Of a DNA stretch of 64,000 nt, positions 10,348 through 47,721 are shown piece after piece. Origin of the DNA: a virus. Within the stretch, counting starts at the first letter, position 1; each line of letters begins with the position of its first letter. A model generated the notes under the pieces. That model saw only the letters and a program-made list of their open reading frames with translations, had not been told where the DNA came from and did no database searches. Both the position numbers and the translations under genes were made by a program. The stretch is from IMG/VR virus record IMGVR_UViG_3300005613_000001, positions 192,279-256,278 of that record. One strand, given 5' to 3'.

Positions 10348-10619
10348 ACATCATATCCCTGTAAAACGTTTTTTAAAGTCAAGTAGCCAGTGCAGTTGTT
10401 GCCAATAGGAATGCCCTGTTTCTCAGGGTCTTTGCCTTTATCTCTCAATTTAAGCACTGCGTCTACTTCCACATCAATATCAGCCTTTTTATGAGATTTC
10501 TTCAGGCAGTAAAACTTAGAATAATCGTGATCGTCTTCTGCCAAATAGCGACATCTAAGATGACCTCCATACGGAAGGCAATGTCGTTCTAGGTGTTTTT
10601 TAGATAGCATTCTTACCAA
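10344..10619 (-). CDS. hypothetical Cys/His-containing protein, 91 residues
   Basis: I do not recognise it. Four Cys and several His in the first half (HCLPYGGHLRCRYL ... FYCLKK) could bind zinc. It overlaps the peptide deformylase by 7 bases and is likely cotranslated with it. Confidence 0.55.
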   Translation of the reverse strand: MVRMLSKKHLERHCLPYGGHLRCRYLAEDDHDYSKFYCLKKSHKKADIDVEVDAVLKLRDKGKDPEKQGIPIGNNCTGYLTLKNVLQGYDV

Positions 10620-11131
10620 ACCTCAATTTCTGTACCTATATCCGAGACTAAAATACCCGACGAACTGTGGTCAATTTCATGCTGAAACACAATAGTTGCA
10701 GGGTTTCCAACCACGAAATTCACATCTTCAATATTTAGCTCATCATCAGCTATTAATTTTTGCCCTGTCACTCTTACTTCAACGAATCTTTCCACTAAAA
10801 ACTGGCGAAATTCACCGGCTTCGTTCAATAAAGACAAACAGCCCTCTACAGAGTCCTGTTTCTTGTCCTCTGTGGGGCCGTACACACAATTTAAATAATA
10901 ATCAAACTTAGGGGCGGCTACGAGTGCGGCTGCGTTAGGAGGCGGCTCAAAGACATTTCTTTTTATTATAAAGAGGTTCCACGGAATACCCACCTGAACC
11001 GCTGATACGCCCGCCCCTTTATTTTTCTTACAAACCTCTTCCATTTGGAGACATACTTTGTATATCTCCATGAGATTATCAGGAATTGCCGCCTCGGCTA
11101 GCGGGATTTGGTCTATTGGGACAACTTCCAT
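10613..11131 (-). CDS. def: peptide deformylase
   Basis: It removes the N-formyl group from nascent peptides at the ribosome exit. All three family motifs are present: GAGVSAVQVG (motif 1), EGCLSL (motif 2) and QHEIDH (motif 3, two His metal ligands with the catalytic Glu). I choose the ATG at 11131, which overlaps the stop of the ribbon-helix-helix gene as TAATG and gives 172 residues; an upstream in-frame ATG at 11173 would overlap that gene by 43 bases. Phage deformylases are known from cyanophages, where they favour rapid turnover of photosystem proteins. Here it sits beside bS21, supporting a translation role. Confidence 0.93.
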   Translation of the reverse strand: MEVVPIDQIPLAEAAIPDNLMEIYKVCLQMEEVCKKNKGAGVSAVQVGIPWNLFIIKRNVFEPPPNAAALVAAPKFDYYLNCVYGPTEDKKQDSVEGCLSLLNEAGEFRQFLVERFVEVRVTGQKLIADDELNIEDVNFVVGNPATIVFQHEIDHSSSGILVSDIGTEIEVW

Positions 11132-11406
11132 TAAAACTTGCTGGCAATGGCATTTACTCTTACTTCCAGCCATCTCCTTAATTCGGCAGGATCAGCTTGC
11201 ACGCTCTTAGGAATTTGCAAAACGATATTTGAATATTCATTGCTTTTCTCTACGACCGTCAACTGGTCCTTGTCTACAAGATATTTTTGAATTGTATCCC
11301 TAACCAATTTAGAAACGGAAATCCCGTCTTCCTTGGCAATCCTCTTTAATTTCTCCTGCAATTCAGGTTCAATTGACAAACTCATAATGGTATGTTTCTT
11401 GGACAT
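11131..11406 (-). CDS. ribbon-helix-helix (CopG/Arc-like) protein
   Basis: The first 50 residues fit a ribbon-helix-helix fold: a short strand (HTIMSLSIEPEL), helix (QEKLKRIAKEDG), turn (IS) and helix (VSKLVRDTIQKYL). Such proteins bind DNA as dimers. The 40-residue extension may mediate oligomerisation or bind a partner. With no toxin gene next to it, a phage transcriptional regulator is more likely than an antitoxin. Its stop overlaps the deformylase start by one base. Confidence 0.8.
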   Translation of the reverse strand: MSKKHTIMSLSIEPELQEKLKRIAKEDGISVSKLVRDTIQKYLVDKDQLTVVEKSNEYSNIVLQIPKSVQADPAELRRWLEVRVNAIASKF

Positions 11407-19406: not shown

Positions 19407-19874
19407 TTCAGGTTCTATAACTTTCGTTTCAATCACTGTTCCATTTCCTAAATCATCTACACTATCAACAAACTGGTCAAGGTTTTTCATTTCAATGAGA
19501 CTCCAATGAGGATCATCTTCAGGGACATTCTCTGGTTTCGTCCAATAAAACTGCTCGAATTTATATTTATAGATTTTTTCAGCTACATCTTCCACCGACA
19601 TGCCGGAATGTAAATCTTCCGCCATTTCTCCACACACCCTCAATGAATCACCTTCAACAGCGCCTCCTAATTTTCTCAGCAAGATAGCACATTCTTGAGC
19701 TTTATACGTATTCACCAGCAAATTAAGAATATCGCGTTTTAAGTTGCCATCTACGAATTCAACAATAGCCGTATACTTAGCCATTGTTTGCCCTCGCTCG
19801 GGCTTATGATTTCTATTCACTTCAAAAAAGTGTTCATGAAAATTAGATTCATCAATTATCAGTTCTTCTGTCAT
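19383..19874 (-). CDS. hypothetical protein, 163 residues
   Basis: I do not recognise this protein. The central part (GNLKRDILNLLVNTYKAQEC) is helical and both ends are acidic. The ATG at 19874 is preferred because a GGGGAG site sits 6 bases upstream; an earlier in-frame start would extend further into the polymerase gene. It overlaps the DNA polymerase end by 23 bases, so it is probably translated with it. Confidence 0.6.
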   Translation of the reverse strand: MTEELIIDESNFHEHFFEVNRNHKPERGQTMAKYTAIVEFVDGNLKRDILNLLVNTYKAQECAILLRKLGGAVEGDSLRVCGEMAEDLHSGMSVEDVAEKIYKYKFEQFYWTKPENVPEDDPHWSLIEMKNLDQFVDSVDDLGNGTVIETKVIEPESEVPEGS

Positions 19875-22707
19875 TATTTTCTCCCCATTCCATAACGAAC
19901 ACACGGCTATCTCTCTCTTTGGGAGGTAGCATATGTCGCTTATGTCTTTGTGGGCTATCTAGTGTATATCCAAATTTAGTAGGCGGTTGAACCCTAATAC
20001 GTAAAAGGTTAGCGCCTGTGAATTCTTCTTCAAATCGTTCCCAATCATTGGCCCAGACAGTTACATATTGTCTTTCTCCATTACCATCTTCAACCCATAT
20101 ATTATAATTAAACCCCTTACCATTTTTCCAATCTCTTTTTTTATGAGATACAACAACCACTTCTACAGGGCCAACAGTAGCACCATCCCGCATTTCTAAC
20201 CGTAATTGAGAAAATGTGCAACCTGTATAATCTGGGCTTTTCTCTAAAGGGTGGTTCCAAATGAATCCCAGATACTTAGTCTCCGCCGATTCAGGGGAAG
20301 TATAGATTTCTTCTAATTCTTTTGGAATATAAGTATCATCACTTGTAGGATCAAATTTATCAAATGTGAATGGATTTTCGTCTGCTTCCGCCTCTTTTTT
20401 AAGATATCCTTTGATGGATCTTTCTCGTTTGCCCCATAAAGTCTTTAATCTTTTCCATTTATTCAGATTCTTCTTTTGAACTTTCCCATATTTAGGACCA
20501 GGAGTGCGACATACTTCCTCAACAATGTCATCTTCATCAAACAATTGTTGCCACAATTCTAAATTAGACTCATCAAACGTTGCCAATTCATCATGGTCAG
20601 CAAGTATTTCTTTCAACTCACTATCATACCTATCCAAAGTTTTCTGGTATCTCTTCCCACGATCTATCCTATTTTTCTCCGCAGCCTTAAAGTTTTCGTA
20701 ATATTTATACAATGTAACGGGATCGCCCTCATCAAAAAGATTAAGACCCAAAAGCGGCTTGATAACTGTGGCATCTGTACCAAAGAATCTTAAGAACTGT
20801 TCAAGAGATGCATAGGGCTGTCCTTGAACAATTTTCTCAGCATTTGACTCACCCACCCCTTTGATATTTGAAAGTCCAAAATAAATCTTATCATCAGGCG
20901 AAGGCTCTTCATTCTCTTGGATGATTGCAAATCTCACATTTGATTTACTAATATTGACTGGCTCTACGGGGATATCATGAATTACCGCCTCAGTTTTATA
21001 CTCTCTAATTTTGTCCTCTTTTGTTTCACAGCTTAGAATACCAGCGTAGAATTCAAGTGGGTAATGGGCTTTTAGCCAAAGAAGTCTTGAGCTTACATAA
21101 GTGTAGGCTACCGCGTGGCTTTTGTTAAATCCATAAGCCGCGAATGCTTCAATTTGATCCCATAGGAATCTAGTATTTGCTGCTGCGGCTGTTTGGTGGA
21201 TATTTTCTTTTGTGAGTTTGGACGGATATTGAAGTTTATACAAATAAGCAACGTATCCCAGAGATTTAGCGTAAGCATTCTCCATACCTTCATAAAATGC
21301 ATAATTCGCCACTTCTCGTTCTAATTCTTCAAATGAATCTTTATGGAGTCCAATCAGAGGCGTAACAACTTCTTTTGCATCTTTCGGGATTTCGGGCTCA
21401 CAATCACGTACTAATATTTTAGCCCCATTTTCAAGAAACATCTCTTTATACTTACCAAAAATCTCAACCTTCTTCTTACTAATAGCCTTTCTCACTTTTT
21501 CAGTGTGACTATCAGGAACCCCACCAATATATTGGAGAACCTTCATAACCTGTTCTTGATAAGCCATTACCCCGTAGGTATTCCCTAGAATACTTTCCAT
21601 AGCTGGGTGTATCGTATATGGTTCTTCTCCCTTCTTTCTTTTTACATACTTCTCCGCCATGCCCATTCCCAACGGACCAGGGCGATATAAGGCTGTGTAC
21701 GCTACCAAATCATCGAAACTTGTAACGCCTCCTTGTTTTACCAATGATCTTATTCCAGGGGAATCAAATTGGAACACGCATTTTAAATCCCCCTTGTTTG
21801 CCATTGCAATCGCTTTGGCATCATCTAGATAAGCCGTATCTGACCAATCCCGTTGTCCAGGTAATGCGCAGATTGAATCCAAACCATGACGAGCTTTCAC
21901 TAATTGACAAATTCTACCAATTTGTTCCAAGTTCGTAATTACAAGAAGATCAAATTTTACCAGACCCAATGGCCCAAGCTCCTGTGCATTCAATCCCTCA
22001 ACAAAGGCAGAGGTAATTTGTTCAGCCCTATCAACCACAAGGGGAACAAAATTACCAAGAGGTTTATTAGAAATAATCAAACCCGCAGCATGCTTGCCCA
22101 TGCTCTTATTGCGATTTGTGAGCTTTCTAGCCGCATTGTAAATATCAGGATTCGCTTCACAAAACTCTGCAAGGGCAGGATTTAATCGCAGTGCGTCTTC
22201 CCAAGTAACCGCATCACCCTCTTCATCTTTATCTACTAAATATTTGGTAATTGCCACCATTTCATCCCGACTCTTACCATAAACCTTAGCAATATCAATA
22301 AGAGAGCTACGCATACCAAACGTATTATAACTGCCGATATTGCAAACCCGTTCTGGACCGAAGGCATTAGGTGCCCATTCCTCCTTCAAATAATCTCGTA
22401 TTGTCTTGTGGAAGTCTACATCTACATCAGGCATATCCCCATCAAATTCAAAAACAGGCTTCTCATTAATATCAAAATCAGGAACCAAATTTAAAAGATA
22501 AGCTACCAAGAGATTGTTTTGATTAACAGGATAACGGATTTTCTTTTCTTGAAACTCATCGTATAAATCAACAAAATATTGAGCTTCATTCTTGGTTTTT
22601 ATAGCCTTAATCTCCTCAGACAATCGCCCCTTGTGTAGATCATCCTCTAAACCCCGCCTCTTTAAAGCGCTAGCACACAAATAAATCAGTCTATCTTGGT
22701 AGTTCAT
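19852..22707 (-). CDS. dnaE: DNA polymerase III alpha, C-terminal catalytic half
   Basis: This 951-residue protein carries the palm, thumb, fingers, helix-hairpin-helix and OB-fold parts of a C-family polymerase. The catalytic Asp pair is in MPDVDVDF (residues 92-99) and the third acid in VKFDLLVITNLEQI. The PHP domain and the GPGRGS loop are absent; they lie in the separate gene at 37876. The first 90 residues look like a degenerate second copy of the segment that ends the N-terminal half. No intein motifs are present at the junction. I choose the ATG at 22707 (MNYQDRL); an upstream ATG at 22713 is possible, and the furthest in-frame ATG would overlap the divergent metacaspase ribosome site. 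Confidence 0.92.
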   Translation of the reverse strand: MNYQDRLIYLCASALKRRGLEDDLHKGRLSEEIKAIKTKNEAQYFVDLYDEFQEKKIRYPVNQNNLLVAYLLNLVPDFDINEKPVFEFDGDMPDVDVDFHKTIRDYLKEEWAPNAFGPERVCNIGSYNTFGMRSSLIDIAKVYGKSRDEMVAITKYLVDKDEEGDAVTWEDALRLNPALAEFCEANPDIYNAARKLTNRNKSMGKHAAGLIISNKPLGNFVPLVVDRAEQITSAFVEGLNAQELGPLGLVKFDLLVITNLEQIGRICQLVKARHGLDSICALPGQRDWSDTAYLDDAKAIAMANKGDLKCVFQFDSPGIRSLVKQGGVTSFDDLVAYTALYRPGPLGMGMAEKYVKRKKGEEPYTIHPAMESILGNTYGVMAYQEQVMKVLQYIGGVPDSHTEKVRKAISKKKVEIFGKYKEMFLENGAKILVRDCEPEIPKDAKEVVTPLIGLHKDSFEELEREVANYAFYEGMENAYAKSLGYVAYLYKLQYPSKLTKENIHQTAAAANTRFLWDQIEAFAAYGFNKSHAVAYTYVSSRLLWLKAHYPLEFYAGILSCETKEDKIREYKTEAVIHDIPVEPVNISKSNVRFAIIQENEEPSPDDKIYFGLSNIKGVGESNAEKIVQGQPYASLEQFLRFFGTDATVIKPLLGLNLFDEGDPVTLYKYYENFKAAEKNRIDRGKRYQKTLDRYDSELKEILADHDELATFDESNLELWQQLFDEDDIVEEVCRTPGPKYGKVQKKNLNKWKRLKTLWGKRERSIKGYLKKEAEADENPFTFDKFDPTSDDTYIPKELEEIYTSPESAETKYLGFIWNHPLEKSPDYTGCTFSQLRLEMRDGATVGPVEVVVVSHKKRDWKNGKGFNYNIWVEDGNGERQYVTVWANDWERFEEEFTGANLLRIRVQPPTKFGYTLDSPQRHKRHMLPPKERDSRVFVMEWGENNDRRTDN

Positions 22708-22730
22708 AAGCATAAATATAATTGATTCTC

Positions 22731-22738
22731 TATAAATC
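22731..22738 (+). promoter_or_regulatory. TATAAATC box upstream of the metacaspase gene
   Basis: TATAAATC lies 15 bases before the metacaspase ATG, in the 46-base divergent gap next to the polymerase start. It resembles the T4-late-like boxes seen before other plus-strand genes. Confidence 0.35.
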
Positions 22739-22753
22739 GTCAAGGGAGACAAT

Positions 22754-23515
22754 ATGAAACGAGCATTATTAGTTGGTATAAATAATTACCAGGAACCAGG
22801 AAGTGATTTGTCAGGCTGTTTAAACGATGTGGCATTCATGCAAGCCCATATTCGCAAATATGGATTTGAAGAAATGCAAACGCTTAAAAACAGCCAAGCA
22901 ACTAAGAACAATATATTGACCGCACTCACCAATTTAGTTGATAGTTCCGAGGCGGGAGATAAAATTCTATATTACCACAGCGGTCACGGAACTCGCGTGG
23001 TAGATGGCTTTGATGGAGATGAAACAGACAGCATGGATGAATGCCTTGTCTCCTACGATCACGATTGGATGGAACCGCTTCGTGACGACCTTATTGCCAA
23101 AGCAATCAGTGGCATCCACCCAAAAGCACGCCTCTATTTAATTATAGACACCTGCCACAGCGGGACTATCACTGATATTATATCAAATGGGAAAATAAAA
23201 TCTATCCCAATGCCACCAGAAATGGAAGAATATGCTTTACGAAAGGAATTAAAAGTCAAAAGAGATGTTCGCCCTAAAACATTAAACCATATTCTTTTAT
23301 CAGGATGCAAACCCCATGAATACAGCTATGAAGCAGTAGTAGATGGGAAAATCAGAGGATTAATGACATGGGGTTTTATTAAAACCACACAGCGAAGAAA
23401 GCCCTGGAATAGAGTGATTTCAGCCGTTAGAAAACAAGTTACCAGACAACAACCAGGACAGCATCCTGTGTTGGCGGGGAAACCTAGACTTAGAAAAGAA
23501 TTAATATTTAAGTAA
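22754..23515 (+). CDS. metacaspase (caspase-family C14 peptidase)
   Basis: The 253-residue protein is a single-domain type, with the caspase p20 catalytic dyad intact: His78 in YYHSGHGT and Cys134 in IDTCHSG. It also shows the early MKRALLVGINNY strand and acidic residues (DGFDGDE, residues 84-90) typical of metacaspase substrate pockets, which cut after Arg or Lys. There is no separate p10 domain beyond about 90 residues. A GGGAG site precedes the ATG. It heads a plus-strand island with a glycosyltransferase and a methyltransferase. Metacaspases drive suicide in bacteria and eukaryotes; on a phage it might process phage proteins, kill the host on cue or counter a defence protease. Confidence 0.93.
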   Translation: MKRALLVGINNYQEPGSDLSGCLNDVAFMQAHIRKYGFEEMQTLKNSQATKNNILTALTNLVDSSEAGDKILYYHSGHGTRVVDGFDGDETDSMDECLVSYDHDWMEPLRDDLIAKAISGIHPKARLYLIIDTCHSGTITDIISNGKIKSIPMPPEMEEYALRKELKVKRDVRPKTLNHILLSGCKPHEYSYEAVVDGKIRGLMTWGFIKTTQRRKPWNRVISAVRKQVTRQQPGQHPVLAGKPRLRKELIFK

Positions 23516-23529
23516 CCCTAAATTAAGTT

Positions 23530-24183
23530 ATGATTGTAGCTACGTATTTAACAGATTCTCACAAACAACTCTACGAGGAGTTTTTTGAACCGTCTGCTAC
23601 TAAAAATGGGTGGGAAATCTACAAAGTGGAAGGGCCGCAGGTTGGGTGCGGGCACTTTGGCGAGCCAGATTGGCCGGAAATGATGAGGCGGAAAGCTCGG
23701 GCAATGTATGATGCTATATGTACTTACCCAAATGAAATCATACTATATGCCGATTGCGACATATATTTTGCCCGAGACTTCAACTGTAAGAAGCTTCTGG
23801 GAGATAACCTCTTGGCAGCCCAGGTAAGCGACAGAAGAGAAATGTGTGCAGGCTTAATGATAATTAATTGCACGCAAGAAATTAAAAGGATGTATAGAAA
23901 AATATATCGCTCTAAGAGATTCTATCAGCCAGGGAATCTAATGAGCGATCAAGATGCATTAAATCACTTTGTAAAAAAAGATAAAATCCCTCGCAAACTC
24001 ATACCTAGACATCTATTTTGGTGTCCAGCTATTGTGAAGCGATGGGAGAGATGGCAAGAAGTGGATTCAATTGAACAAATTCAACCTATACCTAAAACTA
24101 TACTAGCTGCCCATGCTAATTGGTGTAGGGGTCTTGAATTAAAAAAGGAAATTTTAAACTACGTGAAACAATGCATAAATTAA
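23530..24183 (+). CDS. nucleotide-sugar glycosyltransferase (GT-A, GT77/GT8-like)
   Basis: The 217-residue product has a GT-A acidic metal motif (IILYADCDIYFAR), followed by a MCAGLMIINC segment and a late MSDQDALNHFV that matches the donor-acceptor region of GT8/GT77-type enzymes. It is cytoplasmic. It follows the metacaspase by 14 bases and overlaps the methyltransferase by 13 bases. The sugar and acceptor are unknown. Confidence 0.75.
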   Translation: MIVATYLTDSHKQLYEEFFEPSATKNGWEIYKVEGPQVGCGHFGEPDWPEMMRRKARAMYDAICTYPNEIILYADCDIYFARDFNCKKLLGDNLLAAQVSDRREMCAGLMIINCTQEIKRMYRKIYRSKRFYQPGNLMSDQDALNHFVKKDKIPRKLIPRHLFWCPAIVKRWERWQEVDSIEQIQPIPKTILAAHANWCRGLELKKEILNYVKQCIN

Positions 24184-24764
24184 AACACACTCACATGAGA
24201 ACTAAAAGGAATTCGCCAGGACTCCATAAGCTCTGTAATTCGATCCCAGAAAAACACAGAAATCTTCTTGTAGAAATTGGAAGTTTCTACGGAGAATCCA
24301 CAGCAATCTTTGCAGGGCACTTTAAACAAGTAATCGCAATTGATCCTTGGGATTTCAAAGGCTGCAACGAATTAAATAAGGGTTCAAAGAATAGCAGCGA
24401 GAAGCTAATCACAGGAAAAATGGCTGAGGAGCGATTTGACGAAAATGTAGGCAAAATAGAAAATATTAAAAAAATCAAAGCATACGACCATGATGTAGTT
24501 GACTCTTTTGAAGACAACTCCATCGATTGCATCTATATTGACAGCATACACACTTTTGAAGCGTGTGGGCTCACGATATTAAGATGGTGGCCCAAAGTTA
24601 AAAACTATGGATACATAGCGGGACACGATTTTACGCCAATGTGGCCGGGTATCCAAAAAGTGGTAAAAATAATAGCACAAATGACAAAACAAAGAATGCG
24701 CCGATTTAAAGGGGATTGTAGTTGGCTACTACAAAAAAGAGTTTTCACCCCGCATCAAGTATAA
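24171..24764 (+). CDS. class I SAM-dependent methyltransferase
   Basis: The 197-residue product has the SAM-binding motif I (LLVEIGSFYGESTAIFA), motif II acidic end (VIAIDPWD) and a catalytic-loop pattern (CIYIDSIHTFEACGLTILRW) of the Methyltransf_24 type, often used on sugars. The start could be 24171 or the in-frame ATG at 24195 (MRTKRNSP). It is the last gene of the metacaspase island and overlaps the convergent receiver-like gene by 20 bases. Confidence 0.8.
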   Translation: MHKLKHTHMRTKRNSPGLHKLCNSIPEKHRNLLVEIGSFYGESTAIFAGHFKQVIAIDPWDFKGCNELNKGSKNSSEKLITGKMAEERFDENVGKIENIKKIKAYDHDVVDSFEDNSIDCIYIDSIHTFEACGLTILRWWPKVKNYGYIAGHDFTPMWPGIQKVVKIIAQMTKQRMRRFKGDCSWLLQKRVFTPHQV

Positions 24765-25146
24765 CTTCTAACAAATTCTTATCTCCCACCTTCTCATAAA
24801 CCAAACTTGTAATTGCCATTCTCTGAACCTCATATCCCACCTTTGCTAAATCTTCAGTCATGTATTGTGCAGCGACACTATTGCAAGAATGTACCACCAC
24901 CTTTTTAACATCGGGCTTATTTACCGCCATCCATCTAACAACTTCGCTACCTGTATTCGGATGAGCAGGATCAACATAGACCTCCCCACCTAAATCATGG
25001 TCCAAAAAAACAATGTCCCACGGTTCCTCAGCCGCCTCTAATACTTCAATACATTCAGAGGCGGTTGAGGTAACCGTGGCGTATGGCGCAAAGCTGCGGA
25101 ATAACCTTGTTCTCTCAGGCGAATCATCAAGCCATAACACATTCAT
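24745..25146 (-). CDS. receiver-domain-like protein
   Basis: The 133-residue product resembles a response-regulator receiver: acidic pair in VLWLDDSPERTRL, phosphoacceptor-like Asp in DIVFLDHDLGG and a final VVVHSCNSV strand. The spacing and the HD in LDHDLGG are like the 'cyclic-phosphate processing receiver' family found next to RNA ligase or repair genes. No histidine kinase or output domain is attached. It abuts the PEP-CTERM gene with a 4-base overlap. Confidence 0.65.
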   Translation of the reverse strand: MNVLWLDDSPERTRLFRSFAPYATVTSTASECIEVLEAAEEPWDIVFLDHDLGGEVYVDPAHPNTGSEVVRWMAVNKPDVKKVVVHSCNSVAAQYMTEDLAKVGYEVQRMAITSLVYEKVGDKNLLEVILDAG

Positions 25147-26023: not shown

Positions 26024-26878
26024 TTAAGCAAATTTCTTGCGAAGCCACCATCTTTTGAGTTGCTGCAATGGATGGCGATTACCCCCCCATAGAAAGCCCC
26101 TCTTTAACATGTGGCGGTAGGCGTCAAACTGAAAATAATAGGGGGCTTGCGACACTTCACCCCGCCCCAAAAGAATTTTAAGAGCCTCAGCCGAAGCGAC
26201 TCCGCTACACAACTGACAAGCTAGAGAAGCTGAGGGGCCTTTGCCGGTATCAGGTTCTACCTTATCAAAATCTAAATAGGTAATATGAGTATGCGAAGGT
26301 GCAAGTCCTACAGCAAATGCCACAAGTTTATCCATATGATCCATTGAATCATTTAAATCAAAGTAATCATCAAATGACATACCTGTTGGGTGGAATGAAA
26401 GCCAGGCTGTACTAAAGCCCACGGGGCCTGCTGTGACTGCCCAGATGCCCCTTTCACGCGCGGTGGCGAACAACAAGCGTCTAGCGTCAATAGAAAAGAA
26501 ATCAATACCATCAACAAATAAATCGGCATCATCAAGGAATCTAGAAACGTTGTCTTGCGAGATGGGTTCATGAAAAATGCGAAAATCAATATTAGGATTG
26601 ATAGCCAGGGCCATATCAACCATTGATTCAACTTTACTATGACCTATCGTAGCTGTTGTTGCTCCACACTGACGATTGAAATTAGCAACTTCAAATGTAT
26701 CAGGATCAGCAATTGTAAATTTGCCAACCCCCAGGCGAGTCAAGGTAAGCAAATGAATACCCCCGACACCACCCATGCCAGCAATTGCTACCCGACTATT
26801 GCGAACAACACTCTGTTCATCTGAGGCGATCAAGCCCTGATTGCGGGCAAAAGCCTCTTCGTAAGACCAAGAATCCAT
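26024..26878 (-). CDS. ThiF/E1-like adenylyltransferase
   Basis: The 284-residue enzyme has a nucleotide-binding loop (AIAGMGGVGGIHLLTLTRLG), an acidic NxxR-type site (FEVANFNRQCG) and a lid-like CQLCSGV zinc/Cys pair. It belongs to the ThiF-MoeB-E1 superfamily that activates a C-terminal glycine of a ubiquitin-like protein as an adenylate. The catalytic Cys of E1 is not obvious. I prefer the ATG at 26878 to the upstream TTG. No ubiquitin-like, E2 or JAB gene is adjacent. It overlaps the end of the 123-residue membrane protein by 49 bases. Confidence 0.88.
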   Translation of the reverse strand: MDSWSYEEAFARNQGLIASDEQSVVRNSRVAIAGMGGVGGIHLLTLTRLGVGKFTIADPDTFEVANFNRQCGATTATIGHSKVESMVDMALAINPNIDFRIFHEPISQDNVSRFLDDADLFVDGIDFFSIDARRLLFATARERGIWAVTAGPVGFSTAWLSFHPTGMSFDDYFDLNDSMDHMDKLVAFAVGLAPSHTHITYLDFDKVEPDTGKGPSASLACQLCSGVASAEALKILLGRGEVSQAPYYFQFDAYRHMLKRGFLWGGNRHPLQQLKRWWLRKKFA

Positions 26879-27201
26879 TTTAAGATTATCCAAATACTAA
26901 GCCCGGTAATGTATACTAAGAACACCGGCCACCAAAAGAAAACAGCTTTTAGTAAAACGGGCAAATCGTACCTTATAAAATCACATGGGATATCTCGGGT
27001 GTCATAGAGAAACACGCCGGTAAAAAACAAAATGAATACCGGCCACCAGAAAACGTAAGTCGTAAATGTTTGCCACGCTATGCTTGGCATTTCTCTGACG
27101 GTCTGCCAAAATCCTTTTCTATAGACAGACACTTGCCGATAGGCAAATGGGAACAGGAGTTGGTCGCCGTCTTTCTTGCGTTCCACGGTAATCCAGGGCA
27201 T
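26830..27201 (-). CDS. membrane protein, 123 residues
   Basis: Two hydrophobic helices are visible (about residues 48-66 and 88-110), both rich in Trp and Phe, with a charged N-terminal cytosolic region. It is unrecognised. It shares 124 bases with the preceding 180-residue gene in another frame, so either the start is further inside or a frameshift joins the two. It may be an envelope partner for the nearby ThiF-like enzyme. Confidence 0.55.
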   Translation of the reverse strand: MPWITVERKKDGDQLLFPFAYRQVSVYRKGFWQTVREMPSIAWQTFTTYVFWWPVFILFFTGVFLYDTRDIPCDFIRYDLPVLLKAVFFWWPVFLVYITGLSIWIILKWILGLTKRLLPAIRA

Positions 27202-40470: not shown

Positions 40471-42105
40471 CTATGTATTGGCTATGAAACGACTTACATT
40501 CGGCTCAGCCCATTTATTTTCGTACTCATCACGCGACATTACACGCACATTGTCTTCAGACTTGGGATCGTCACATATATAAACAATCTCCTGATTGTCA
40601 CCGTCTCTTGTGGATAATAAAACAGAGTTCTTCCAAATATTACAAATTGAAACCATAACGGCTCTTGCATAAGGCTCATGTAGTGGTCTGCCGTCCCATG
40701 TGTGTTCTAACAAAAATGTTCCACGACCACGATGGTTTGGATCAACCAAACGAATATGAGGCTGTCCACCATTCAAATAACTCTTAAGAAGCTTCTTTTT
40801 AATTTGTTGATAATCCTTACTGACTATGACATACTCGCCCTTTGGGGTTTTTTCCCACTCAAAGAATTCATTCTCATTACAAAAATCTTCTGTAAAGAAT
40901 TCGGAAATAGCCATAAAGTCATCATAGCACTTTCTGACTTCAAAAATCTTCTCTTTCCCTAAACCCAACTCTTTATCCCAATCTTCTCTTTCTTTTAAAT
41001 TGTCACATGATTCGTACTCTTCTCCAAACCTTCCTTTATTCCACCTATCTTCTATATCTTGGAATATTTGGAATCCTAATTTGTATGGATTCAAAGAATA
41101 CTTGCCACCCATAACCATCATTCTAGCCTTGGCATATTCTACTATACCGCAGTCTTCACCTTCCTGCCCCAAAGCTGCCATTCCGTTGCAAGCCAAAACT
41201 TCATAATCAACCTTAGAAGCCCAGCCCTCATTCATCATCTTGGTTCTAATTTGGGGAGAAAAATACTCCGCCTCCTCATGAAGCATGGCAATAATATCCG
41301 CCTGCCATTGTTTAAGGGGCGCATTGTCTCTGAGATAGCCTAAAATATCTCGGGAAGGAGAAGTAAACAATTCTAATTGTTCGGCAATTTCAGCCTTCTT
41401 TATTCTCTCTTGCTCCTTCTTCTTCCACGCCTCCGTATTAATCCAATCTTCCATATAATCCCGTTCCTCATCAACTTTGAGGCGGCGGGCGTTATGGTAT
41501 CTCCTTTTGTCTTTAAATTCTGTCTTCTTTTTATGCGTTTGCTTAGTTTTAGCAGGATCAATTAGATTCTCTAGCCTTAGAACATGATCAATAAACTCCA
41601 TCACTCGTTCTTTGCCCCACCGAGCCATATACTTTCTAATTCTCATACCATTATTTGCCATTTTGTTCATCATATTAGTATCGGTATGAGAAAAATAAAC
41701 ATTGTTCTTGAAGAAGTCATTATGTCCTAGAGCATGTGCAACCACCATCACATTATCAACAAAAGTATTACTGCTAAGACAATAGATGTAGCAAGGGTTG
41801 GTATTAATAACCAACTCCGCGATACGGCGACTTCCAATGTCATATCCTCTTTGGAGTTCTTCGTATTCCATTCCAAATTTCCAGTGAGGATACCTAACAG
41901 GGAACCCATAATATGCTGCAATTTCACTAATTTCGTCATCTCGCAACACTTCAACTACGGCAGGATAAAAGTCACAACCGTAATCCCTAACCCCTTGAAA
42001 AATCTTAGGGAGTTGTTTTTTAAGCTCTTCCGGCAAGCTTGCACCAGGAACAGTATTGTCCCCGATAAGCAATGACGATCCCATCAATGATCTTAAACTT
42101 GGCAT
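40471..42105 (-). CDS. SpoVR-family protein
   Basis: The 544-residue product shows the family features: PVRYPHWKFGMEYEEL and INTNPCYIYCLSSNTF followed by VVAHALGHNDFFKNN, and LEHTWDGRPLHEPYA near the end. SpoVR (YcgB in E. coli) works with PrkA and DUF444 in stress and sporulation. Its biochemical activity is unknown. The stop-start overlap with DUF444 is one base (TAATG), showing tight coupling. It follows DUF444 in the usual order. Confidence 0.92.
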   Translation of the reverse strand: MPSLRSLMGSSLLIGDNTVPGASLPEELKKQLPKIFQGVRDYGCDFYPAVVEVLRDDEISEIAAYYGFPVRYPHWKFGMEYEELQRGYDIGSRRIAELVINTNPCYIYCLSSNTFVDNVMVVAHALGHNDFFKNNVYFSHTDTNMMNKMANNGMRIRKYMARWGKERVMEFIDHVLRLENLIDPAKTKQTHKKKTEFKDKRRYHNARRLKVDEERDYMEDWINTEAWKKKEQERIKKAEIAEQLELFTSPSRDILGYLRDNAPLKQWQADIIAMLHEEAEYFSPQIRTKMMNEGWASKVDYEVLACNGMAALGQEGEDCGIVEYAKARMMVMGGKYSLNPYKLGFQIFQDIEDRWNKGRFGEEYESCDNLKEREDWDKELGLGKEKIFEVRKCYDDFMAISEFFTEDFCNENEFFEWEKTPKGEYVIVSKDYQQIKKKLLKSYLNGGQPHIRLVDPNHRGRGTFLLEHTWDGRPLHEPYARAVMVSICNIWKNSVLLSTRDGDNQEIVYICDDPKSEDNVRVMSRDEYENKWAEPNVSRFIANT

Positions 42106-43334
42106 TATAATCCCTGAACTTGAACTTTAATTTTTTGTCTCCCCAGAAGGTCTTTGATTGCCTTCTGGATTCCTTCATTTCTCTCATCTTCACTCATAGA
42201 TGGAGAACCATACCCGAGCGTAAAGCCCTTCTGTTTTTCTTCAGGGCCGACTCCTGTAAGCCTCACTTGCTCCCCGTCTAAATAACCTTCTTCAACCTTC
42301 TTGTGTACAAACTGTTTTAAGCTGCCCTCGTAATTCCAAGGTAGAACTTGGGTTATTCCTACAAAATTGGCTATATTGGGAGGAAACTTCTCTTTGATAA
42401 CTTGACAAAACCTATCATTATCATTATCCCAATTTTCACCATCAGAAAAGTAAAATAGGTAAATGTTCCACTTCTCGGGAGGAAAACGATATTTTAATTG
42501 TTTAGCAATCAAACTTAATGCTGATGAGCATTTAGTCCCGCCTCCATAACGATACTTATAGAATTTCTCCTCATCTACCTCTTGAGCTTCTGTATCATGT
42601 ACGAAGTAACACCGTTCTGTTTTCTTATAGAAACTACGAATCCAAACATCAATCCACCAAGACATATCAGATACAATATCACATTTAAAATCATTCATTG
42701 AGTATGAACAATCTCTTGCAAAAAAGATAACCGCATTGCTAGATGGCTTCTTCAACACTTTGTATTGCCTATACCTAAAATCGCTGTTTATAGGCGTAAT
42801 CATCCTTACCTTTTCGACCATTCCAGGTATTGCGTGCAGCTTATCCGCCTCCCCTACTTGCACCAGCCTTTGATAAGCCTTCATGAGTGTGCGTTTCATA
42901 TGTCGTAGAGAATGGGGGCCTGTTAATGAAATGTCATTATACTTATACTCAGTTTCCTCAAAGGTCTGATTTTCCTTTGGTTTAAGATTAGGAAGCTGAA
43001 GCTCATCTTGCATGAATTTTAAGATGTGTTCCAAATCAATTTGGAGTTCAATTCCTTCATTGTGTTGATCTCCTGGCTTGTTGCCTTTCCCTGGCTGTGG
43101 GTCACGACCAATCACATCTCCTGGTTTGCCGGGGCCTCTCCCAACCCCTATTTTATTATCCCCGTATTTAAACCGAGGAATAGCAATCCTATCGATTGGG
43201 ATGCCAATTTTACCACCCTTAGCCCTTTGGCGAAATATTGTGCCTTTTGACATGTATTTGCGTATAGCTTTGCGGGCGCGACCTTCCACAACATCCCTAA
43301 AGTGTTTGTGGTCTTCTTCTACTCTTCTTGGCAT
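42105..43334 (-). CDS. DUF444 (YeaH/YhbH) von Willebrand A-like protein
   Basis: The 409-residue product has the YeaH layout: basic N terminus (KAIRKYMSKGTIF), then GDxIGRGxGxGKG-like low-complexity (HKNEGIELQI region) and a vWA metal site ARDCSYSMND. It is usually an adaptor between PrkA and SpoVR. It lies after a strong terminator that separates it from PrkA, and overlaps SpoVR by one base. Confidence 0.92.
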   Translation of the reverse strand: MPRRVEEDHKHFRDVVEGRARKAIRKYMSKGTIFRQRAKGGKIGIPIDRIAIPRFKYGDNKIGVGRGPGKPGDVIGRDPQPGKGNKPGDQHNEGIELQIDLEHILKFMQDELQLPNLKPKENQTFEETEYKYNDISLTGPHSLRHMKRTLMKAYQRLVQVGEADKLHAIPGMVEKVRMITPINSDFRYRQYKVLKKPSSNAVIFFARDCSYSMNDFKCDIVSDMSWWIDVWIRSFYKKTERCYFVHDTEAQEVDEEKFYKYRYGGGTKCSSALSLIAKQLKYRFPPEKWNIYLFYFSDGENWDNDNDRFCQVIKEKFPPNIANFVGITQVLPWNYEGSLKQFVHKKVEEGYLDGEQVRLTGVGPEEKQKGFTLGYGSPSMSEDERNEGIQKAIKDLLGRQKIKVQVQGL

Positions 43335-43348
43335 TTCCTTGTCCTTTT

Positions 43349-43412
43349 AAAAAAAGGGCGTGATCTCTCTGTATAATCAAGGATGAAATATAAAAATCGA
43401 GAGACCACGCCC
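43349..43412 (-). terminator. long-stem terminator between PrkA and DUF444
   Basis: GGGCGTGGTCTCTC and GAGAGATCACGCCC pair over 14 bp (one G-U), with a loop of about 29 bases, followed on the minus strand by a run of T. It lies 9 bases after the PrkA stop and just before the DUF444 ribosome site. It may end most PrkA mRNA, with DUF444-SpoVR made by readthrough or from a separate start. Confidence 0.75.
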
Positions 43413-43421
43413 AAACCCTAT

Positions 43422-45509
43422 CTATTCATCTTCTTCCGCTAAATTTCCCCTCGCAAAAATACTCCCAACATGATCCAATACATCGGAGGCAGACTTTTCA
43501 TTGTAACCAAAATCTTTAATGAGCCTCGTCTTAATAGCATCGATCTTCTCTTGTAGGTCAGGATCAACAACAGCAGCACCGCTAACATTTAATGCACTCA
43601 ACTTAATGTGATCCTTTGTATCCTCAAACAATTTAGCTTGAAGTGCTTTCTTGAGTTCGGGGTTGGAGTCCCAAGTGAATTTCTTCCCTTTATTCGCCAA
43701 ATCACCCATGAACGCTGCTAATGTAACTCTGAAGTCCTCAGCACCCGTACCTGGAATATTGATCTTCTCTTCAATGCTTCTCATCAACTGCTCATTGGGC
43801 TCTTCCTCCCTACCAGTATAAGGATTTAACACCTTTGATTCATTAATGGAAGCCATCATATTATCAATATAATTGCTGCACAATCTGACAATTGCAGTCT
43901 TATCCGACACAAGGGCTTTCTGAACTTCATTCTTCAATATATCATCCAATTCTTTAATAGCTAAATCAGCACATTCTACATATCGCTTCAACCTCTCTTT
44001 ATCACTATACAAAGAATTGTGCTTCAAGCCTGATTTGAGTTCATTCATCACCATAAAGGGATTTACATAATCGTAATTATCACTCAGGCAATTGGAAATC
44101 TTATCCTGAACGTATCGGGCACTAATCCCACCAACCATACCCTCTTCGTCCTGCTTCTCCTTAATTTCCTTAACCTTATCCTCAGTCCATCCAGGCATAG
44201 CCCGACCGTCGTATAATTTGACCTTCTTGACCAAATCGCCAATCTCCTCATTATCTTTGAGGCGGCTTAAAATGGCGAATAAGCCCGCAATTTCCAAGGT
44301 ATGTGGAGCCACATGCTGCTTTACTTTGCCTTCGCCATAATCCTGTTCATAGACCTTCATCTCCTGTGACCATTCAAGCAGATAAGGCACATCAATCTTA
44401 AAGGTTCGGTCACGCAACGCCTCCATAAATTGATCTTCCTGCAATTTAACAAATTCAGGATTATTGGTGTGCCCAAGAAGAACTGTATCAATACCAATCT
44501 GGGGGAATTTCTTAGGCTTGATTTGCTGCTCTTGGGTAGCACCTAACAAGTCATAAAGGAATTCTTTTTGAAGCTTTAAGATTTCAATGAACTCCACCAT
44601 TCCCCTAGAACCAACACAAAATTCCCCATCAAAATTAAATGCTCGGGGATCGGAGTCACTACCAAAGTGGGCAATCTTGCTCCAATTGATATCTCCGGTT
44701 AGTTCCGTGGAGTCTTGATTTTTTTCATCCTTGGGCTGGAAGGTTGCAATGCCCACACGATCAGCTTCCGAGTGTACCTTTCTAATCACCCTAATGTGAC
44801 CGTCTAACACTTTTTGAAGATCGCCATTGTAACGGTTCAATAATTCCTTCATGTACTTCTTACACCGGGGATTTAACGAACCCATAATCCTCAAACCATA
44901 AAGCCCAATCCTGTCTTCCTCAGGGGTTAATTCATGCAAGCGATTATTCAATCCACCCAAAACCTCTTGTTGTAATTCCGCAGGGAGCAACTTCAAAGGT
45001 TCATCGTTCATTGGGCATTCATCTACATCATTTGTAGCAATGCCCTTCTGTCCCGTAGGAAGATCAACCCACTTAAATGTATACCAAGCCCCATCATCCG
45101 TGCGGGAGTATCTTTCTAACCCTCTTTTTAAGAGGCGGCAGATAGTGGATTTTGAAGACCCAACAGGTCCGTGGAAAAGTAAAATTCTTTTCTCAGGACC
45201 ATACCCCCCAGCAGCACCACGAATGAATCTAACAAAATTATTTAAAGTTTCCTCAAGTCCAAAAATGGGGATCTCTGGATCGTCAAAGAAGTGATAATTG
45301 GTATATGTGTGACGATACTTCTGAAACTTAGAAGTCCCCCCTGCCATTATCATGTCGTATATTCTTTGGTAGGCTGTGCGGATAAGGCGGGGTCGGTCAT
45401 TCACCCGATTAAGGTACTCAGAGAATGACATCTCCTCATTCAACGCACAAAACTGTTCTCGATTAAATTTGCCAAGTAGTTGCGAATAGCTGTTATTTTC
45501 AGGTTCCAT
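43422..45509 (-). CDS. PrkA-family serine/AAA+ protein kinase (YeaG-like)
   Basis: The 695-residue product has the AAA+ Walker A GPVGSSKS at residues 114-121, Walker B-like acidic run (DVDECPMNDEPLKLLP) and the C-terminal PrkA region. It is longer than E. coli YeaG (644). PrkA phosphorylates or unfolds clients and acts with YeaH and YcgB. The phage form keeps the GTxKFxxYRHTY-like early motif. Its start overlaps a TATAAATA-like sequence. Confidence 0.92.
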   Translation of the reverse strand: MEPENNSYSQLLGKFNREQFCALNEEMSFSEYLNRVNDRPRLIRTAYQRIYDMIMAGGTSKFQKYRHTYTNYHFFDDPEIPIFGLEETLNNFVRFIRGAAGGYGPEKRILLFHGPVGSSKSTICRLLKRGLERYSRTDDGAWYTFKWVDLPTGQKGIATNDVDECPMNDEPLKLLPAELQQEVLGGLNNRLHELTPEEDRIGLYGLRIMGSLNPRCKKYMKELLNRYNGDLQKVLDGHIRVIRKVHSEADRVGIATFQPKDEKNQDSTELTGDINWSKIAHFGSDSDPRAFNFDGEFCVGSRGMVEFIEILKLQKEFLYDLLGATQEQQIKPKKFPQIGIDTVLLGHTNNPEFVKLQEDQFMEALRDRTFKIDVPYLLEWSQEMKVYEQDYGEGKVKQHVAPHTLEIAGLFAILSRLKDNEEIGDLVKKVKLYDGRAMPGWTEDKVKEIKEKQDEEGMVGGISARYVQDKISNCLSDNYDYVNPFMVMNELKSGLKHNSLYSDKERLKRYVECADLAIKELDDILKNEVQKALVSDKTAIVRLCSNYIDNMMASINESKVLNPYTGREEEPNEQLMRSIEEKINIPGTGAEDFRVTLAAFMGDLANKGKKFTWDSNPELKKALQAKLFEDTKDHIKLSALNVSGAAVVDPDLQEKIDAIKTRLIKDFGYNEKSASDVLDHVGSIFARGNLAEEDE

Positions 45510-46716: not shown

Positions 46717-46926
46717 CTACAGCATTACTTCCTCGCCGGTTTCAGAATCAACAATGATAAAATTATCTTTGAAATCATACCAGCCTTTTAATTTCAAATA
46801 TTCATGGAAATCTTCCATTGATGCTTTTAAGTCCTTTATATTGTTACCAACAACATACGGAACGCCAGTTTGAGGGTGGCTTAAAGTCTGTCCCGTTTCC
46901 CTATTAAATAAAATATAAGTGGTCAT
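46717..46926 (-). CDS. hypothetical protein, 69 residues
   Basis: I do not recognise it. It begins MTTYILFNRETGQTLSHPQ, a form common in small phage beta proteins, and ends acidic. It abuts the 165-residue gene by one base and overlaps the 71-residue gene by 4 bases. Confidence 0.5.
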   Translation of the reverse strand: MTTYILFNRETGQTLSHPQTGVPYVVGNNIKDLKASMEDFHEYLKLKGWYDFKDNFIIVDSETGEEVML

Positions 46927-47138
46927 TTGCTTATATCTAAAGTAGTGTTGGGCGGGCGTTTTACCTTATAGAGAACGCCTGGTTTGCCAGAAATGGGATT
47001 AGGATTAGGCATAGCAGCCTTGGGGCTAACCGGCCCAGAGGGGTTGGCAGGCTTGAGAGTGACAGGGCTAGTAAGAGATATGTTCCTCTTACCGCCTCTA
47101 TTATCTTTTTCTAAGAGAAATTGCCGAAATGTCTTCAT
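46923..47138 (-). CDS. small protein with CTS-like N terminus, 71 residues
   Basis: It starts MKTFRQFLLEKD, closely like T4 internal-protein targeting sequences (MKTYxEFIxE). The rest is basic, Pro/Lys-rich and disordered. It may be a head-internal peptide. It overlaps the 104-residue gene by 4 bases. Confidence 0.6.
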   Translation of the reverse strand: MKTFRQFLLEKDNRGGKRNISLTSPVTLKPANPSGPVSPKAAMPNPNPISGKPGVLYKVKRPPNTTLDISK

Positions 47139-47449
47139 TTTACCTTCATCTTCTTCATCTTTTTCTTCATCATCATGCGGTCGCCCTCTTCCTCTTCAGC
47201 GGTTTTAGCAATAGCAGAAACAGCCTGTTTGGGAGCCACTGTTCCACCTGTATTATCCACTGCTACTTTAGCGGCTTTTGCTACTACCGTAGGATCTTGC
47301 AGCTTATCTGCCACTGTTTGTCCGGGGTTAAGATTTTTGCCTGTCAGAACCGAGTTCACCGCACCCGCCGCTGCTTTATTGGCTTGACGAGTCACTAATG
47401 GAGACATATTCTCTAATTTCTCTTTATACCACTCTCTAAATGTTTTCAT
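47135..47449 (-). CDS. protein with CTS-like N terminus, 104 residues
   Basis: The product begins MKTFREWYKEKLEN, another CTS-like motif, and continues with Ala/Val-rich helices and a basic end (MMMKKKMKKMKVK). I use the ATG at 47449, 8 bases after the HNH stop. It is adjacent to the 71-residue protein with the same start. A role inside the capsid is inferred. Confidence 0.55.
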   Translation of the reverse strand: MKTFREWYKEKLENMSPLVTRQANKAAAGAVNSVLTGKNLNPGQTVADKLQDPTVVAKAAKVAVDNTGGTVAPKQAVSAIAKTAEEEEGDRMMMKKKMKKMKVK

Positions 47450-47457
47450 ATTTCTAT

Positions 47458-47721
47458 TTAGCACTCTATAAGCTGTTCTTCTCCATCAATCTCACACAAA
47501 AGGACATGACACCCGGCAGTCGTGAAATGCTTGCCAAATATCTTAATTCTCCCAGAATGGCACTTTCTATGGCATGTGGCGCAAGCGGTCACCGTATTCC
47601 CTTTCGTATATTTACCGCCTTCTTCGCCAGGAATAATTCTATGCGTGTCAAGCAGATTATAGTCATCCTCGCCACAAAAGCAGCACTCTTTATCCACTCT
47701 CTTTTTGCTTTTCTTATCCAC
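47458..47721 (-). CDS. small HNH endonuclease
   Basis: The 87-residue product is a compact HNH/His-Me finger: CCFCGEDD, THRIIPGEEGG and VTACATCHRKCHSG, with the four zinc Cys in place. It is the third free-standing nuclease gene in the window. It lies next to the divergent 141-residue gene. Confidence 0.85.
   Translation of the reverse strand: MDKKSKKRVDKECCFCGEDDYNLLDTHRIIPGEEGGKYTKGNTVTACATCHRKCHSGRIKIFGKHFTTAGCHVLLCEIDGEEQLIEC

Follow-up and report, generated by a model that had tools for sequence, protein, structure and literature searches.

Metacaspases form a protease family that cleaves after Arg or Lys. The caspase-type proteases of bacteria have so far been discussed as enzymes of host death or defence, and caspase-like peptidases are known as effectors in bacterial immunity (PMC8195603). 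Metacaspases in general require calcium, and the presence of the catalytic dyad alone is no proof of activity (PMC5756287). A connection between metacaspases and lysis has been hinted at in print, since phage-related metacaspase operons were noted in Clostridium botulinum by Asplund-Samuelsson et al. in 2012, and a metacaspase operon of Geobacter sulfurreducens, its metacaspase not necessarily GSU0716, holds an N-acetylmuramoyl-L-alanine amidase (PMC3501461). In the literature searched on viral and phage metacaspases no paper on a phage enzyme was found, and caspase was absent from the best-ranked papers when it was searched together with lysis terms. Phage lysis is known to proceed by holins, endolysins and spanins, and to our knowledge no cysteine protease is a standard part of it.

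The gene described here is located in a window of 64,000 nucleotides, i.e. the whole stretch of DNA analysed, which belongs to a virus record of 527,112 bp (G000). The ORF at 22754..23515 on the plus strand codes for 253 amino acids plus the stop, and its product matched Pfam Peptidase_C14 (PF00656) over residues 2-240, scoring 91.9 bits where the cut-off is 21.4 (E=6.4e-26). Its membership in the metacaspase (C14B) family is secure, and it is the single caspase of the record. Sequence matches in the PDB were to plant, fungal and trypanosomal metacaspases and to the Geobacter caspase homologue GSU0716, with a best E-value of 4.8e-21.

The codons of the catalytic residues were located at 22985..22987 (His78, in the motif YHSGHG) and at 23153..23155 (Cys134, in DTCHSG), both on the plus strand. 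A first, sequence-only reading of this DNA had reported a 253-residue protein with intact HSGHG and DTCHSG motifs and acidic pocket residues, and had looked to relatives for conservation of the dyad. All of this was borne out, as H78 and C134 were invariant in an alignment of 39 viral homologues, together with C22, D25, S76 and D132, and with further core residues that include a few glycines. By our assignment, the four pocket residues correspond to those which in Trypanosoma brucei MCA2 form the S1 pocket receiving Arg or Lys. Invariance of dyad, S1 pocket and core motifs across very divergent homologues points to selection for catalysis. The window protein is thus probably an active protease, and Arg/Lys specificity of the MEROPS C14B type is the most likely prediction from its acidic S1 pocket. 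With regard to a possible calcium dependence, an acidic GDE-D-DE loop was seen at about residues 84-96.

An AlphaFold2 model computed on the viral alignment (pLDDT 87.6, pTM 0.87) took a metacaspase fold in which both a p20 and a p10 region are present, the latter with strands at 179-202 and helices at 203-232. Certainty was lowest in the segment after Cys134 and the linker to p10 (about residues 137-175, with many Lys and Arg). In sequence comparison, residues 170-240 aligned to the C-terminal part of Yca1 and Candida glabrata Mca1, in alignments that are weak when taken alone. Foldseek queries against the PDB returned Arabidopsis metacaspases 4 and 9 first and GSU0716 next, with E-values of 1e-17 to 1e-15 for metacaspases. 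Among the viral models of BFVD, the confident named matches were caspases and metacaspases of eukaryotic viruses, and no protein under a phage name was returned at E=0.001. The protein begins directly at the caspase domain, without an N-terminal anchor. The model fits a compact type I-like metacaspase, an assignment made because a p20 region is followed by a p10-like region without a prodomain (definitions in PMC5756287). An orthocaspase, which consists of p20 only, was rejected by the p10-like region, and a type III metacaspase, in which p10 is N-terminal to p20, by the p20-p10 order.

That the gene is phage-encoded, as the sequence-only reading had it, is confirmed by the content of the record, in which a terminase (G000 437184-438656), a T4-type S77 prohead protease near it (G000 426292-426744) and, by PHROG annotation, tape measure and tail fibre proteins were identified. 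One protein of the record also weakly matched a T4 gp55-like late sigma factor. The metacaspase itself was rejected as an S77 or S78 prohead protease, as it matches only PF00656 and S77 is a separate gene. About 20 G000 proteins share a T4-like N-terminal tag, M-[KQ]-[TF]-F-[KR]-[EQ]-[WFY]-[LIM] (e.g. window 46923-47464, minus strand), with examples such as MKTFRQFL and MKFREWL, and these resemble capsid-targeting sequences. The window further contains consecutive genes for a PrkA kinase, a DUF444 (YeaH-like) protein and SpoVR (40471-45509, minus strand), which is a bacterial stress and sporulation operon in a phage; SpoVR and PrkA have been mentioned for a Ralstonia jumbo phage too (PMC8504454).

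The sequence-only reading had stated that few such peptidases are described from phages. For GenBank this stood, since queries with the window protein and four other family members found a homologue in only one of 50,697 phage records, but it understates how often they occur in nature: IMG/VR yielded no relative when scanned with the window protein as the single query, yet a narrow profile scan gave 44 loci, mostly of 245-320 amino acids. A terminase match was obtained in 18 of the 44 caspase records tested, the window record included. Bacterial relatives are common: scanning one genome per species confirmed 481 of them, and the best 80 were mostly compact. A tree built from 101 sequences placed the window protein with the caspases of loci L008, L133 and L009 in an all-viral set (SH-aLRT 98), and the viral label required 6 changes against 31 in shuffles; only the local grouping is to be trusted, because the bacterial sequences were picked by query similarity, tree inference was quick and the window copy sits on a long branch (1.55 changes per column). 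The window metacaspase is one of the compact caspases that make up a phage lineage.

Many phage copies carry N-terminal extensions. True transmembrane segments followed by KKRK-like charges were found at the N-termini of L008, L041, L133, L011 and L012, and the charge pattern of these anchored copies would place the caspase on the cytoplasmic side of the inner membrane. In 13 other phage caspases the N-terminus begins with Met-Cys followed by an aromatic and basic stretch, e.g. MCKLCNWFFKPDP and MCWKKKPP, although 4 of the 13 have this Met-Cys inside the listed ORF, as an internal start. This stretch is perhaps a membrane anchor; none of the 14 bacterial caspase extensions of at least 10 residues has a Met-Cys start. 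The Met-Cys caspases (e.g. L013, L019, L040, L047) often have a Pro-rich linker and fall into two different caspase clades.

Two kinds of rearranged caspase genes were observed among the viral loci. An intein that carries an HNH homing endonuclease (PF14890, PF13392) splits the caspases at L043:6450-8594 and L044:4801-6795, its insertion point lying directly after the SGHG of the catalytic His, and the spliced sequences would read ...SGHG-SQV.... At L048:1837-2748, L049:5427-6239 and L051:7716-8582, the catalytic-His segment no longer lies mid-protein but has been relocated behind p10, at the C-terminus, so that the order is N-terminal part, Cys part, p10 and His part, which is not a circular permutation. 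The moved His segment formed a strand in an AlphaFold2 model, a weak one built on three sequences (pLDDT 62).

Time and again, the genes around the phage caspases were lysis genes, confirmed by profile, and the endolysins among them belong to unrelated families. In L008 a GH24 endolysin is located directly downstream of the caspase, and in L133, the caspase of which is 68% identical, an Amidase_3 endolysin is two genes downstream, so that different enzymes occupy the same place. Both fall, with the window protein, into the supported set of the tree; L009, also of this set, has no endolysin alongside. Elsewhere, an N-acetylmuramidase is directly downstream of the caspase in L016, an Amidase_2 directly upstream in L019, and M15-type endolysins precede the caspase in L040, in L045 and in L046, the last one recognized by its homology to the L040 endolysin. 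DUF5675 genes upstream of the caspase in L036, L047, L048, L049 and L051 were excluded from the lysis count. Small membrane proteins with weak PHROG holin matches follow the caspase in L036, L040 and L046. Near the L008 caspase, genes for NAD synthase, nicotinate phosphoribosyltransferase and an isochorismatase-type nicotinamidase were found (L008:7103-11949, minus strand), a possible NAD+ salvage set.

Bias from inspecting only the vicinity of the caspase was avoided by scanning whole caspase records with six endolysin families at the curated Pfam cut-offs. Nine records gave an endolysin match, and in five of them the endolysin was within 1 kb of the caspase, 110-904 bp away from its domain, where 0.35 would be expected under uniform placement; the tail probability was 6e-6, or 8e-5 without one of two sister records, and the combined p about 3e-5, numbers to be read as a guide because the records are fragments and the lineages not fully independent. 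In the remaining records the distances were 6 kb (G005), 16 kb (G024), 5 kb (G029) and 123 kb (G022, the huge phage LR745208). The lysis cases are partly clustered phylogenetically. No lysis-type neighbour was found at any of 80 bacterial caspase loci, a soft control as the search was by the less sensitive single-sequence phmmer only.

The window copy itself has no adjoining endolysin, its neighbours being a DNA polymerase, a glycosyltransferase and a methyltransferase, and no endolysin of the six scanned families was found in the whole 527-kb record. A nucleotide-diphospho-sugar transferase-like (glycosyltransferase-like) gene follows 14 bp past the caspase at 23530..24183 on the plus strand (PF03407, E=1.1e-6) and is overlapped by a methyltransferase-like gene at 24171..24764, likewise on the plus strand (PF13578, E=4e-13). 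The plus-strand island led by the caspase was thus correctly recognized in the earlier reading, and its three genes are probably on one transcript. Divergently, on the minus strand, a DNA polymerase III alpha-like gene was located at 19852..22752 with a listed TTG start, the real start being probably an ATG downstream of it; the nearest relative of this polymerase is in the huge phage LR756511.1 (595 kb), at 38%. Close to the island, the minus strand also codes for a protein with a cyclic-phosphate processing receiver (cREC) domain (24745-25146) and a ThiF/E1-like protein (26024-26893). In two viral contigs of 67 and 211 kb, a peptide deformylase is directly downstream of the caspase (L018:8970-9581, L026:8865-9365), and the peptide deformylase of G000 is at window 10613-11173 (minus strand), about 11.6 kb from the caspase.

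Upstream of the caspase, on the plus strand, a candidate T4-type late promoter box, CATAAATA, was found at 22711..22718, 35 bp before the ATG, and AGGGAGA at 22743..22749 is by inspection a probable ribosome-binding site. The box named in the sequence-only reading, TATAAATC, is present at 22731..22738, and as a promoter on its own it was set aside, since its upstream enrichment was not clear (2 against 0.9 expected). The pattern [CT]ATAAATA occurred in 17 of 603 upstream gene windows of G000, against 8 in antisense and 5.8 in shuffles, though a count of 15 was attained in one shuffle out of 200. The tape-measure gene, too, is preceded by this pattern, and among ten genes with the late box, PHROG annotation identified only the tape measure, a tail fibre and the weak late-sigma match. 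As a late promoter CATAAATA is suggestive only; late expression of the metacaspase is nevertheless plausible because of this box, its genome-wide excess, the tape-measure precedent and the weak late-sigma match.

The intact active site and the repeated endolysin adjacency suggest that phages employ the fold of the bacterial caspase-type proteases for terminating an infection. We therefore propose, with a probability of roughly 0.4, that the window metacaspase is a lysis-stage demolition or lysis-control enzyme, which would be made late and would cut after Arg or Lys during cell dismantling. Made late in infection, the protease would stay silent at low cytosolic calcium, either in the cytosol or bound to the membrane. 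Once the inner membrane is breached, inflowing calcium would switch it on, a trigger borrowed from known metacaspases, and the active enzyme would cut proteins after Arg or Lys as the cell is dismantled. Such a calcium switch would explain both the endolysin adjacency and the anchors. We infer late expression, the calcium trigger, the substrates and the retention of its relatives' role by the window copy, the last from kinship and the weak late-promoter signal, because its gene has no endolysin neighbour and its protein no anchor. The wider proposal, that tailed phages have turned metacaspases, whether soluble or anchored in the membrane, into calcium-switched proteases that stay inactive in a low-calcium cytoplasm, act when holins open the membrane and ensure timely lysis by Arg/Lys-directed cleavage of host proteins or lysis regulators, is more speculative and should be held as a tentative idea. 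Of the roles suggested in the sequence-only reading, the triggering of death is nearest to the pattern of the relatives, but in the form of lysis, as these sit beside endolysins. A block of host caspase-type defences, another role named there, may be considered as well.

The main rival to a lysis-stage role is a host-directed protease acting earlier, in early or mid infection, and cutting host proteins such as defence effectors or transcription factors after Arg or Lys with no link to lysis. For patchily distributed peptidases of jumbo phages, host proteins have been suggested as targets (PMC7824862), and the patchy distribution and varied neighbourhoods of the caspases would fit accessory genes of this kind, as would a window copy that adjoins a polymerase gene and lacks a membrane anchor. 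The relatives, however, cluster with endolysins and not with known counter-defence genes, and we regard host takeover as a possible but less probable function than one in lysis. Maturation of virions, by trimming of head or tail proteins at Arg/Lys sites, had also been suggested for this gene and could be read from the L037 caspase directly upstream of a terminase, and from the caspase of LR745208, which is followed by a VWA protein that is conserved in L006. This suggestion was weakened by the S77 prohead protease of G000 and the approximately 20 tagged proteins of the kind that S77 would handle; S77 was present in two other caspase phages and S78 in two. A head-maturation role is therefore improbable in a phage with its own prohead protease.

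Slightly less probable still is a superinfection or abortive-infection effector against competitors, similar to bacterial caspase defence modules, since the window protein does match the PADLOC caspase profile but has no sensor, NTPase, TPR or gasdermin partner beside it. The EACC1-associated caspase family (NF047832) was rejected as a class (34 bits against a cut-off of 140). Least probable, and quite unlikely, is that the gene is acquired cargo with no role under selection, or that its product binds without proteolysis. The long branch of 1.55 changes per column and the insufficiency of a dyad as proof of activity (PMC5756287) would speak for this, the invariant dyad, S1 pocket and core motifs against it.

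Repeated tags, e.g. RLIRLAH or ELLKIAK, were observed on several proteins per phage in L006, L002, L009 and L043. They follow the amphipathic patterns RxxLIRLAHxxPxLRxxLxPLLK or xxELxKIAKxL on unrelated proteins (L006:6752-7060, L006:12271-12762, L002:14776-15135, and in L009 and L043) and look like a sorting signal. Shared N-terminal tags were considered as caspase substrates and rejected, as the pattern of the relatives was not found in the window phage, which has MKTFR tags instead.

As far as the literature was searched, no description exists of a family of phage metacaspases whose active site is invariant and whose genes are placed in lysis regions. The lysis idea is testable, as candidates are available in fragments of approximately 45-60 kb with identifiable endolysins. 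An earlier mention of caspase homologues in phage-like clusters is that of the C. botulinum operons. The sole GenBank phage match, the caspase of LR745208.1 (485 kb; IMGVR_UViG_3300025030_000038), is likewise compact, with 28.7% identity over 97%, but has a VWA-protein neighbourhood and falls into another phage group in the tree. The metacaspases of giant viruses (Fadolivirus, Clandestinovirus, Medusavirus and others) are also virus-encoded, share the caspase fold and were the best BFVD matches, although they belong to viruses of eukaryotes and were 22-26% identical among the best. Arabidopsis metacaspases 4 and 9, Yca1, C. glabrata Mca1 and T. brucei MCA2 share the dyad, the S1-type residues, the p20-p10 order and the fold, whereas their type II linker or type I prodomain is absent from the window protein. 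GSU0716 of Geobacter sulfurreducens (PDB 3bij, 285 amino acids) is, like the window protein, a compact single-domain caspase homologue of similar length and the same fold (TM 0.75/0.72), but it is 23% identical and encoded by a chromosomal bacterial gene.
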